6,968 nucleotides of DNA from a bacterium (lineage in GTDB: Bacteria; JALSQH01), in contig JALSQH010000095.1 of NCBI GenBank assembly GCA_026985515.1, positions 1-6,968 on the forward strand, written 5' to 3'. Below, piece by piece: positions 2,917 to 6,968 of this stretch. Each line of letters opens with the position of its first letter. Position 1 is the first letter of the stretch. The position numbers were made by a program, and so were the translations under genes. The notes under the pieces were generated by a model, which was given only the letters and a program-made list of their open reading frames with translations, did no database searches and had not been told where the DNA came from.

Positions 2917-4815
2917 CTATGAAGAAATCTCTTTTTCTAATTTTTCAATTTCTTCTCTGACAATTTTTTCGATTGATTTATATATTATTTCAGGGATAAT
3001 TTTTTGCAAGGTGGATGTAACTTTTTCCTCAACAATTGGCGTAATTTTCTCTGCAATATCCATTCCTTCAATGGTACTCTTCAAGAGATTTTCTACCTTT
3101 TCCTGAATGAGAGTGGTTAATTTTTCCTCCGGGATTTGAAGCTCGGTTACTCTTTCAGTTTCAACTTCATGTTTCTCTTCTTCTGATGGTGGCGTGAATT
3201 CACCGTACGCCTCCTCTGCTTCCAGCAGTTCTTCTTCCTCCTCAGAAGGTTGTTCTTCTATCTCCTTTTCCTCCACCGAGAGAAGGGGTTCTCCTGGCGT
3301 GGCAGTTTCTATTTTCTCTTCCACACCTTCTTCAATTCCTTCAGAAACTTCCTCAGGGAGTCTGTCACTGATTACAATTTCCTGTTCCGCAGCGGGTTCC
3401 TCTTTTTCTTCTGTGAAAATTTCCTCCTCTGCGGGGATTTCTTCCGTTATTTCTTCGGCAGGCTGAAGTTCCTCTTCTGCGGCTGACTCTTCAGAAGGGG
3501 ATGTAACTTCTGTTAAATCGTATGGTTCAGCAGACTTCTCCCCCTCCTGAGTTTCCTCAGCTTCCCCTCCAAGGACAGATTCAAGGTCTGATTCAGTTTC
3601 CACAACTGTAATCTCTTCCTTTTCTTCAACATATCTGGAAAGATCCGGCTCTTCCTTCTCCTGAAAGACCTCTTCTCCTGCGGTTTCAGGGGATTCTTCT
3701 GAAGGAGTTGCTTCTTCTGCAATTACTTCTTCGGAGAATGTTTCCTTTTGTTCTTCAGCACCTGAGAGATCTTCATAGGAAGCTTCGGTAGTTTCTTCAA
3801 AGGTTACTTCCTCCGACGTTTCTAATGCTTCAGTGGTTACTTCTTCAGATATTTCCTCTTCCGTTGTAAGAGAAGTTTCTGCAGTTTCACCGGTGAAGCC
3901 CTCCTCAGTTGCTTCTTCAATTTCGCTTATTTCTTCTTCCTGAAATGTTACCTGACCTTCTTCTCCACCTGGTGAGCTGAGACCCTCCAGATCATACTCC
4001 ACTGTTCCTGTTTCTTCCGCTGTTGCTATTTCTGCAGGTGTTTCAAACTGCTCCGGAACGCCTTCTTCTTCCGCAGCTGATTCTACCTCTTCAACTTCCT
4101 GAAGTTCTTCCTCTTCTGTTACTTCTTCAATTTCTTCTAATTCTTCAACAGGCTGAACTGTTTCAGTTTCCTCCGCTTCAGTTACAGGCTCTATTTCTTC
4201 AAGAGTTTCTGATTCACCAACTTCTTCTATTTCTTCTATTTCTTCAACTTCTTCCAGACCATATTCATCCACTGTTTCTCCCGAGGGTTCTGATGTAATT
4301 TCCTCTTCAGGTGGCTGTATCTCTTCAGGGGGGGTAAAGGTTTCCTGTGCAATTGCCTCAGGAGAAAATTCCACTTCTTCGAATGCAGGTTTTTCTTCCC
4401 GGGGTGTGGTTTCTTCTGTGAGCTGAGGTTTTTTTACCTGATCGGGGGGAAGGGCAAGGAGTTCATTGACTTTGTCTATCAGAGCCCTGGTTTCAAAGGG
4501 TTTGGAAATATGGTCGTCAGCACCTACCTTTGCTGCTTTTTCTTCATCAAATGTTTCGAAGGTCCCTGTCAGAAGGAGAACGGGAATGTTTTCAAAACCG
4601 GGTGTGGTCTTTATGGCGTAGGTGAGTTCATAGCCATCCATTCCGGGCATTGTAACATCAGCAATAACCAGATCAGGCTTTATTTCTCTTGCTTTTCTGA
4701 GAGCCTCCTCACCATTATCCACTATCTCAAGTTCATAATTTTCGTCGGCAAATGTTAGAGTGATTAACTTTTGAATTGTAATGCTATCATCTGCCACAAG
4801 GATTTTTTTTGCCAT
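2917..4815 (-). CDS. Response regulator receiver protein with long glutamate-rich linker and C-terminal helical domain
   Basis: 632 residues. Residues 1-120 are a complete CheY-like receiver: acidic pair D9/D10, phosphoacceptor D53 in the loop IADVTMPGMDG, T83 in LLLTGTFE, and K105 in SKPFE. All catalytic residues are present, so it should be phosphorylated by a histidine kinase; none is encoded in this window. Residues about 125-555 are low-complexity and extremely Glu-rich (17 of residues 181-220 are Glu) and presumably disordered. Residues 557-632 are a more ordered amphipathic segment with repeated I/V-x-E-K patterns (EKITPIVEEKV, IIPEIIYKSIEKIVREEI). There is no DNA-binding, HD, GGDEF or kinase output domain. 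The GTFE-type receiver signature resembles, from memory, deltaproteobacterial receiver proteins with acidic tails; their role is not clear to me. The start is firm: a perfect AAGGAGGT at 4828-4821 lies 5 bases before ATG. First gene of the probable receiver-valS-nadC operon; it ends with TAG. Confidence 0.9.
   Translation of the reverse strand: MAKKILVADDSITIQKLITLTFADENYELEIVDNGEEALRKAREIKPDLVIADVTMPGMDGYELTYAIKTTPGFENIPVLLLTGTFETFDEEKAAKVGADDHISKPFETRALIDKVNELLALPPDQVKKPQLTEETTPREEKPAFEEVEFSPEAIAQETFTPPEEIQPPEEEITSEPSGETVDEYGLEEVEEIEEIEEVGESETLEEIEPVTEAEETETVQPVEELEEIEEVTEEEELQEVEEVESAAEEEGVPEQFETPAEIATAEETGTVEYDLEGLSSPGGEEGQVTFQEEEISEIEEATEEGFTGETAETSLTTEEEISEEVTTEALETSEEVTFEETTEASYEDLSGAEEQKETFSEEVIAEEATPSEESPETAGEEVFQEKEEPDLSRYVEEKEEITVVETESDLESVLGGEAEETQEGEKSAEPYDLTEVTSPSEESAAEEELQPAEEITEEIPAEEEIFTEEKEEPAAEQEIVISDRLPEEVSEGIEEGVEEKIETATPGEPLLSVEEKEIEEQPSEEEEELLEAEEAYGEFTPPSEEEKHEVETERVTELQIPEEKLTTLIQEKVENLLKSTIEGMDIAEKITPIVEEKVTSTLQKIIPEIIYKSIEKIVREEIEKLEKEISS
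3151..4443 (-). repeat. Low-complexity Glu-rich coding region (GAA/GAG-biased tract)
   Basis: Codes for residues about 125-555 of the receiver protein. The plus strand appears as long pyrimidine-rich TTC/TCT runs because the minus-strand codons are mostly GAA and GAG with Thr, Val, Ser, Pro and Ile. The strand asymmetry creates long spurious Ser- or Leu-rich open frames on the plus strand here; these are not genes. Boundaries are approximate. Confidence 0.85.
4219..4254 (-). repeat. Four tandem 9-bp units coding for Glu-Glu-Val/Ile
   Basis: On the minus strand the units are GAAGAAGTT, GAAGAAATA, GAAGAAATA, GAAGAAGTT, directly adjacent. They code for residues 188-199 (EEV-EEI-EEI-EEV) of the receiver protein. 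The unit length is a multiple of three, so gain or loss of a copy would keep the frame. It suggests that the acidic linker grew by local slippage or duplication. Confidence 0.85.
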
Positions 4816-4861
4816 AATATACCTCCTTGATAAAAGGATGCTTCCACTCTATTTTTTTATA

Positions 4862-4890
4862 ATCATACACCAAAATGGGGAGATTGTAAA
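4862..4890 (-). promoter_or_regulatory. Predicted sigma70-type promoter of the receiver-valS-nadC operon
   Basis: Minus strand: -35 TTTACA at 4890-4885 (5 of 6 to TTGACA), 17-bp spacer, -10 TATGAT at 4867-4862 (5 of 6 to TATAAT). Transcription would start near 4855, giving a leader of about 40 bases before the ATG at 4815. Best match on this strand in the intergenic region. Confidence 0.65.
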
Positions 4891-4952
4891 GAACTTTAGG
4901 AGTTATAAGGTACGAAGTCGTGTTAAAGTTTATAATTAATTTAACTATTTGA

Positions 4953-4981
4953 TTGACAACTTTTTTGAATCATGCTAAATT
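4953..4981 (+). promoter_or_regulatory. Predicted sigma70-type promoter of the H-NOX operon
   Basis: Perfect -35 TTGACA at 4953-4958, 17-bp spacer, -10 TAAATT at 4976-4981 (4 of 6), strengthened by an extended -10 TG at 4973-4974. Transcription would start near 4988, about 26 bases before the H-NOX ATG. It is divergent from the promoter at 4890-4862; the two -35 boxes are 62 bp apart. Confidence 0.7.
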
Positions 4982-4990
4982 TTTACCAAA
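4981..4990 (+). promoter_or_regulatory. Possible operator motif TTTTACCAAA at the H-NOX transcription start
   Basis: The 10-mer TTTTACCAAA overlaps the last base of the H-NOX -10 box and covers the predicted start of transcription, a repressor-type position. The identical 10-mer occurs in the other orientation at 5587-5578, in the next intergenic gap of the same operon. No regulator is identified, so this is a conjecture from sequence sharing alone. Confidence 0.25.
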
Positions 4991-5013
4991 GAAGAAATTA
5001 AAAAGGAGTAAAA

Positions 5014-5556
5014 ATGAAAGGTATTCTTTTGTTAGGAGGGTTTGATTACATAGTGACTCAATTCGGTGAAAAACCGTTAAAAGAGGCACAGAAAAAATGT
5101 CATTTGAGAAAAATGATTCTTCCATTTTCCGATGTAGATGAGGAATCTATTAAATGCTTGATAAATGAACTTTCCATTAATTTAGGTTTATCATCAAAGG
5201 AAATTATGGAGAAAGTCGGTTATTACTGGACTCTTAAAAAAGCACCTGAATTTTACCCTCAATTTTATGAAAAATATAATAGAAGTGTTAGGGAATTTCT
5301 AATAAATCTAAATTATATCCATAAAGTAGTTGTTGAGAATGTCGTTTCATCAAAGAAATTGAATCCGCCAGAATTTGAAGTAATCCGCGAAGAGAAAAAT
5401 TACATTTTACTCAGATATATTTCAAAGAGAAATATGATACATGTTGCTATAGGAGCAATAAAAGGACTTGGACAGTATTTTAAGGAAGATATAAAAGTAG
5501 TAAAACAGTCAGATGACACTATGCTTGTTCATTTCATTCAAAATCTTTCCAGTTAA
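5014..5556 (+). CDS. Stand-alone H-NOX (heme nitric oxide/oxygen binding) sensor protein
   Basis: 180 residues, a full-length single-domain H-NOX. The family binds heme b through a proximal histidine, senses NO, and signals to a kinase, cyclase or chemoreceptor partner in the cytosol. Seen here: the characteristic N-terminus MKG; the proximal ligand H103 in the REFLINLNYIHKVV helix; the conserved NPP turn (117-119); and the propionate-binding YxSxR motif Y135-S137-R139 within LRYISKRNM, followed by a helix and YFKEDI that match Thermoanaerobacter H-NOX closely as I recall it. In that ungapped alignment the distal Tyr140, which stabilises bound O2, corresponds to V144, so the site should be NO-selective rather than O2-binding (inference). 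The start is supported by AAGGAG five bases upstream. No transmembrane or chemoreceptor part. It is followed after 65 bp by a diiron protein gene and then a flavodiiron protein gene, pointing to an NO/O2 response role. The usual effector gene is not adjacent. It is more AT-rich than its neighbours. Confidence 0.93.
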   Translation: MKGILLLGGFDYIVTQFGEKPLKEAQKKCHLRKMILPFSDVDEESIKCLINELSINLGLSSKEIMEKVGYYWTLKKAPEFYPQFYEKYNRSVREFLINLNYIHKVVVENVVSSKKLNPPEFEVIREEKNYILLRYISKRNMIHVAIGAIKGLGQYFKEDIKVVKQSDDTMLVHFIQNLSS

Positions 5557-5572
5557 TTTTTGTAAAAAGGTG

Positions 5573-5583
5573 ACCAATTTGGT
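5573..5583. promoter_or_regulatory. Palindrome ACCAA-T-TTGGT in the H-NOX/diiron protein gap
   Basis: Perfect 5-bp arms around a single base, 17 bases after the H-NOX stop codon. It contains the core of the motif TTTTACCAAA (minus strand, 5587-5578) that is also found at the H-NOX promoter. A weak promoter-like pair overlaps it (GTGACC at 5570-5575, 16 bp, TTTAAT at 5592-5597), so the diiron gene may have some independent expression. It loosely resembles ACC-n-GGT sites of NO-responsive CRP/FNR-type regulators such as HcpR, but the central spacing differs. Confidence 0.3.
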
Positions 5584-5621
5584 AAAATTCATTTAATTTA
5601 AAATGATGCAGGAGGTGTGAA

Positions 5622-6710
5622 ATGATAAAGAATCTTTTCAAAATTGGAAAGGATTTTTTCCTCTTAAAAAGTGAGGAAAGTGATTTTCACAGAAATATCT
5701 ACTTCAGAGTATTTAGGGGAGAAAAGAGAAATGTGAATATGATTATGGATCCAGGTACCAAACAGGATTTGAATAATATAATTACCGTTTCCAAGGAACT
5801 TTTTGGTGGGATAAACAATCTGGATCTTATTTTTCTCAGTCATCAGGATCCCGACCTGACCTCAATACTTCCATCAATTGTTGCAATTGCTCCAAAGGCG
5901 AAAGTTATTGCTTCTATTGACACATGGAGATTGGTTAAAATGTATGGAGATATAAGCGAGAAGAGATTTGTTGCAATTGAGAACTTCAAAAGTGATGTTC
6001 TCACCATTAAGGCTACTGGTCACAGAGTCAGGTTTGTCTCTGCAATGTACTGTCACTTTCGCGGAGCTATGATGCTGTACGATTATGAAAACAGGATTCT
6101 CTTCAGTGGGGATTTCCTGGGAGGGGTTGACACGAGAAAGGGAGAAGGTGTCTTTGCAGATGAGAGTAGCTGGGATGGTATAAAGATTTTTCATGAAATT
6201 TACATGCCCATTTCCGGAGCGGTTAAGGAAACAATTGATAGAATATCAACTTTAAACCCTTTCCCCGAAATAATAGCTCCGCAGCATGGAGATGTGATAA
6301 AGGGTGATCTTGTGGTAGAGTTTATGAGCAGGTTGTACGACCTAACTGTTGGTTATGATCTAATAAAGAAAGTTGAGCCAGAGAAAGAATTGACTATTGT
6401 AGCAATCAACGACTTTCTTGAACAGCTTAAAGGAGTATCTCCTCAACTTGGTAGAGAACTGATAGATTCTATAAGTTCTGCAGGTAATTTCACTTCACCT
6501 TTTGTTACCAAAGGTGATGCAATAACTGATTTTAAATTACCTTCATCTGATGCTATAAAGGTTTTGTGGGATAAAATCGAACTCCTTGCTCCGCCTGATA
6601 AGGAGAATGAGATAAAAACACTTTTCATTGCCAGTCTTGAACAGTACAATGTACCGCATAAATTTAAGATAGAGGAAAAAATTGAGGAAATTGAAGATTT
6701 GTTTGATTGA
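5622..6710 (+). CDS. MBL-fold diiron protein, ODP (oxygen-binding diiron) type, without flavodoxin domain
   Basis: 362 residues. Residues 1 to about 240 align in pattern with the metallo-beta-lactamase-like domain of flavodiiron proteins (FDP). The ligand positions can be traced: H74-x-D76-x-D78 in LSHQDPD (FDP: H-x-E-x-D-H), H145 in YCHFRG, D164 in LFSGDFLGG, and H222 in APQHGD. The 19-residue step from H145 to D164 equals that in FDPs, and the other steps are within a few residues. All six side chains could bind iron, but the second ligand is Asp instead of Glu, and L79 replaces the His that ends the motif. The C-terminal 118 residues are largely helical and I do not recognise them; no flavodoxin FMN-binding loop is seen, so it probably binds O2 or NO rather than reducing them alone. 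ODP domains elsewhere are sensor modules of chemoreceptors. Strong Shine-Dalgarno AGGAGGTG at 5610-5617, four bases before ATG. Cytosolic. It sits between H-NOX and an FDP gene, 21 bp from the latter. Confidence 0.85.
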   Translation: MIKNLFKIGKDFFLLKSEESDFHRNIYFRVFRGEKRNVNMIMDPGTKQDLNNIITVSKELFGGINNLDLIFLSHQDPDLTSILPSIVAIAPKAKVIASIDTWRLVKMYGDISEKRFVAIENFKSDVLTIKATGHRVRFVSAMYCHFRGAMMLYDYENRILFSGDFLGGVDTRKGEGVFADESSWDGIKIFHEIYMPISGAVKETIDRISTLNPFPEIIAPQHGDVIKGDLVVEFMSRLYDLTVGYDLIKKVEPEKELTIVAINDFLEQLKGVSPQLGRELIDSISSAGNFTSPFVTKGDAITDFKLPSSDAIKVLWDKIELLAPPDKENEIKTLFIASLEQYNVPHKFKIEEKIEEIEDLFD

Positions 6711-6731
6711 AATTTAAAAGGAGGATCTGTA

Positions 6732-6968
6732 ATGGCAGTACATAAAATAGTTGATGGTGTCTACCATGTGGGGGCACAGGATTGGGATAGAGAATTATTT
6801 GATGAGCTTGTCCCTCTTCCCGATGGTACGAGTTATAACGCATATCTTATAATTGGAACAGAAAAAACGGCACTTATTGATACGGTTGATCCCACCAAGA
6901 AAGAGGTTCTTTTCAGAAATCTAGAAGTTCTTGGAGTTAAAAAAATTGATTATGTAATTTCCAGTCAT
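6732..6968 (+). CDS. Flavodiiron protein (FprA/A-type flavoprotein), N-terminal part only
   Basis: Partial gene: 79 codons, cut at the right edge. Family role: cytosolic four-electron reduction of O2 to water and/or two-electron reduction of NO to N2O, using a diiron site in an MBL-fold domain and FMN in a C-terminal flavodoxin domain; electrons come from rubredoxin, coenzyme F420 or NADH partners. Seen here: [17 protein letters not shown] (residues 10-26), the FDP-type 'VGA-x-DWD' opening; [10 protein letters not shown] (31-40), the conserved 'GT-x-YNAYLI' strand; ALIDTVDP (47-54); and YVISSH (74-79). The last visible residue is the histidine that begins the H-x-E-x-D-H iron motif, so metal ligands and the flavodoxin domain cannot be checked. 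Shine-Dalgarno AAGGAGG at 6718-6724, seven bases before ATG. It begins 21 bp after the diiron gene, so the two are almost certainly cotranscribed. O2 versus NO preference cannot be decided here; the upstream H-NOX favours an NO role. Confidence 0.9.

Follow-up and report, generated by a model that had tools for sequence, protein, structure and literature searches.

Three successive open reading frames on the plus strand of the analysed window code for an H-NOX protein, an ODP-type diiron protein and the first part of a flavodiiron protein (FDP), with gaps of 65 and 21 bp between them. The window is the entire contig C95 (6,968 nt) of a genome of 2.36 Mb that is available in 268 contigs and is 97.6% complete. 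Its minus strand encodes a nadC fragment, valS and a response regulator whose tail is long and acidic. The initial annotation had assigned the three same-strand genes to the H-NOX, ODP-type and FDP families, and this has been borne out by Pfam and NCBIfam profiles, with predicted folds supporting the H-NOX and the ODP; the spacings are reproduced from the ORF coordinates. The features of the locus are as follows.

2917..4815, minus strand: response regulator with long acidic tail, divergent (genomic context of the unit)
4953..4981, plus strand: promoter-like site before H-NOX, TTGACA N17 TAAATT, with TG preceding the -10 (consensus match only)
5014..5556, plus strand: H-NOX (HNOB), stand-alone, 180 aa (Pfam profile, residues, fold)
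5555..5589, plus strand: imperfect inverted repeat in the H-NOX/ODP gap holding a second promoter-like site, TTGTAA N17 TAAAAT, at 5560-5588 (consensus match only)
5622..6710, plus strand: ODP-type diiron protein, 362 aa (Pfam profile, metal ligands, fold)
6732..6968, plus strand: N-terminal 79 aa of the FDP, cut by the contig end (Pfam Lactamase_B, NCBIfam)
Contig C14 (L009) 4553-5455, minus strand: most likely the remainder of the FDP (complementary contig end)

The product of 5014-5556 matches the Pfam family HNOB (E-value 1.1e-29) and its predicted structure resembles solved H-NOX structures with TM of about 0.8-0.88. The proximal heme ligand His103, Pro118 and the Y-x-S-x-R motif (Tyr135-x-Ser137-x-Arg139) are kept. 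In anaerobes H-NOX usually occurs as an O2-type chemoreceptor domain or fusion. In a sample of H-NOX loci from another phylum, every MCP-fused protein has a Tyr at the distal position, and the stand-alone one (L163) has Phe. In the window H-NOX the distal Tyr (Tyr140 of the Caldanaerobacter H-NOX) is absent and Val144 is found at that position. Since Val144 replaces the distal Tyr, the protein is predicted, by the distal-Tyr rule for O2 binding described in PMC8738867, to be an NO-selective sensor with NO bound at its heme. This prediction makes the question of the ligand testable with one purified H-NOX. The soluble protein of 180 residues, with its heme His, Y-x-S-x-R motif and lack of the distal Tyr, is similar to the stand-alone NO-type H-NOX (PMC8738867), but differs from them in adjoining diiron genes and no kinase, GGDEF or EAL gene.

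A second H-NOX encoded in the same genome (C42, L010, 575-1105) is 37% identical to the window H-NOX and has Leu at the distal position. This NO-type H-NOX adjoins a DUF4416 gene in the vicinity of a tRNA and the start of an opposite-strand 16S rRNA gene, and is without a kinase. A weak H-NOX-like paralogue, below the cut-off, has been identified at C37 (L011) 14779-15345 and at L024 1492-2064, and the genes downstream of it are alike in the two genomes of the phylum. A scan of the genome contigs using the H-NOX alone returned nothing, and PLSDB plasmids gave no match.

The second gene of the trio, 5622-6710, encodes a protein that matches the Pfam family ODP (E-value 4e-42) and comprises an MBL/ODP domain (about 1-253) followed by a C-terminal extension (254-352). 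Comparison of its model with the ODP of Thermotoga maritima and Treponema denticola gave VIA Z of 30.3 (6qwo) to 27.7, the extension lying outside these matches. The extension (window 6381-6677) is predicted to form a helix-helix-hairpin-helix-helix arrangement and has no Pfam match. H74, D76, D78, H145, D164, Q221 and H222 are invariant across 24 ODP relatives. All the metal-binding positions of the ODP family are present, and the protein fits the ODP description of PMC7785958, because the His of the second motif is lost (L79) and a Gln precedes the last His (Q221, in PQHG). The ODP domain, the HQDPD motif and the PQHG glutamine are shared with the ODP sensors of T. denticola and T. maritima (PMC7666581; PDB 6qnm, 6qwo), from which the window protein differs by its C-terminal extension of about 110 residues and by having no adjacent chemoreceptor gene.

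Relatives of the subfamily with the extra C-terminal part reach about 50% identity in genomes of WOR-3, Acidobacteria and Aminicenantes and are usually lone genes with varying neighbours. In other ODP relatives the domain is joined to a receiver domain or response regulator, to GGDEF or to a protein kinase; such fusions suggest that it has a sensory role as a signal input. Fusions of the ODP domain to receiver, protein kinase, GGDEF or HEAT-like regions have been observed at L034, L036, L038, L074 and L120.

The 79-residue fragment at the end of the window matches Pfam Lactamase_B, and its best NCBIfam matches are flavorubredoxin models. Contig C14 opens within an FDP gene on the minus strand; the 300 residues encoded there include ODP-like and flavodoxin domains and have Moorella FprA, archaeal FprA and E. 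coli flavorubredoxin as their closest matches. Alignment to a complete relative puts the stretch lost between the pieces at about 18 residues. As the genome shows no other FDP C-terminus, the pieces very probably belong to one gene encoding a two-domain FDP; its MBL-like and flavodoxin parts lie on complementary contig ends. Of the diiron ligand positions, the two fragments show the first His and, further on, a His, an Asp and a His; the missing stretch takes in the E/D/H ligands. Joined in one gene, the MBL-like and flavodoxin domains of the pieces would give the layout of the class A FDPs (Moorella FprA, D. gigas ROO); the window FDP differs in being split over two contigs. The stop codon of the FDP in C14 is directly followed by a terminator-like hairpin and then by a DUF1015 gene. 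The initial annotation had allowed that genes to the right of the trio might reveal an unrelated kinase system; a kinase system downstream of the FDP is rejected on this arrangement.

The signals for transcription are of mixed quality. The strong promoter claimed before the H-NOX gene is a good consensus match (TTGACA-17-TAAATT), but it is weak evidence since this AT-rich stretch has many promoter-like matches, with 16 sites observed in the region against 9.0 +/- 3.2 expected. A search within the trio turned up no terminator-like site. The proposal of one transcript agrees with this and with the close same-strand spacing, and the second promoter-like site before the ODP gene speaks against it. 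With 30.0% GC, the H-NOX gene lies lower than all of the 56 genes sampled on four contigs, whose mean is 41.0% (sd 3.2); the ODP gene has 37.3% and the FDP pieces 37.6 and 40.2%. The AT-rich gene, together with the second promoter-like site, raises the possibility that the H-NOX may be a recent or late arrival at the locus, other causes also being possible.

The initial annotation proposed a search for H-NOX beside ODP and FDP genes across genomes and took a neighbourhood unique to this genome as a refutation; in the present survey the arrangement was seen in this genome only. No ODP or FDP gene lies within about 1.5 kb of the H-NOX in any of the 51 other loci that pass the Pfam cut-off (12, 29 from another phylum, and 10). 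This neighbour test can detect partners, since GGDEF- and kinase-like neighbours of H-NOX do appear, by eye, in the sample. The 80 ODP loci with flanks of up to 6 kb, some of the ODP loci being short contigs or from a genome already represented, include no H-NOX and a single FDP, about 4 kb off on the opposite strand and not adjacent; neither H-NOX nor FDP was found in 29 further ODP loci with 1.5-kb flanks. No fusion of H-NOX, ODP and FDP domains occurs in the loci read, and no paper linking H-NOX with ODP or a flavodiiron protein was found in the literature searched. In the other of the two genomes of the phylum compared, G001, none of the three proteins was matched, which is weak evidence because that genome is 80% complete; its response regulator is cut at a contig start and the site expected for the trio falls beyond. 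The host phylum is barely sampled and the trio could be lineage-specific.

The E. coli norR-norV pair provides a comparison for how such a locus could work. There a gene for an NO regulator, NorR, a sigma-54 activator whose sensor uses non-heme iron, lies beside the gene for flavorubredoxin, a flavodiiron NO reductase. Both loci would combine an NO sensor gene with a flavodiiron NO reductase gene, but the window H-NOX is without a DNA-binding or output domain.

With a probability of about 0.5, we read the trio as an anaerobe's transcription unit for gas stress, specific to its lineage, with the H-NOX signalling in trans. The H-NOX would bind NO at its heme, the ODP would bind O2, or report the iron or redox state, at its diiron site, and the FDP would reduce NO and/or O2 using its diiron-FMN pair. 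Joint expression would make the sensors and the detoxifying enzyme simultaneously, and H-NOX and ODP, without a recognised output domain, would signal in trans to partners encoded elsewhere. We infer NO selectivity, co-transcription, output in trans and shared function. No heme-copper oxidase or NO reductase of the COX1/NorB type, to which the search was confined, was found in the genome, the same search being positive in 8 of 14 control genomes; this absence fits an anaerobe reliant on soluble scavengers. The gas-detection and detoxification module proposed in the initial annotation is accordingly partly supported: the families, key residues and operon-like layout agree with such a module, but the grouping occurs in no other genome examined, the GC content of the H-NOX gene is deviant and a promoter-like site precedes the ODP gene. 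If the trio is co-regulated by NO, the H-NOX would be directly linked genetically to NO/O2 detoxification and not to biofilm or chemotaxis signalling.

The main rival is a chance or recent juxtaposition, in which an AT-rich H-NOX gene with its own promoter would have landed in front of ODP, alone or already paired with FDP, with no functional tie to its neighbours. The low GC of the H-NOX, the habit of ODP relatives to stand as lone genes with changing neighbours, the failure of the trio to recur and the promoter-like site before ODP make this a possible, though doubtful, explanation; yet in a 2.4-Mb genome chance would hardly bring together three genes of low or single copy number and related chemistry, closely spaced on the same strand and with a terminator-like site behind the last one alone. 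It is rather improbable that the H-NOX acts on an unlinked histidine kinase, which in turn phosphorylates the divergent acidic-tailed regulator or another one, with ODP and FDP as mere neighbours. Stand-alone H-NOX do lie beside kinase-like or GGDEF genes in the sample (L184, L188, L190), NO-type ones are paired with a kinase or c-di-GMP enzyme (PMC8738867), receiver domains are numerous in the genome and the regulator is separated from the H-NOX by 198 bp; yet neither H-NOX of the genome has an adjacent kinase or GGDEF/EAL gene, and the regulator-valS-nadC order is retained in G001, where no H-NOX over the cut-off was found. Very improbable, and speculative as to direct control, is a kinase-free gas switch, a self-contained sensor-detoxifier in which the H-NOX would bind ODP or FDP and switch it, or NO-bound H-NOX (and O2-bound ODP) would control the FDP from the same transcript. 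All that speaks for it is that the genes are adjacent and that neither sensor has a recognised output domain, and the unconserved neighbourhood and the absence of domain fusions speak against it.

Two further observations concern the surroundings of these genes. The regulator at 2917-4815 of the window has a Glu-rich tail of roughly 500 residues, and its C-terminus is also kept in G001. At another locus (L013, 1224-3477) an H-NOX is flanked by genes that look, by eye, like TusA and DsrE genes and one for a class V aminotransferase, which points to a possible link with sulfur transfer.
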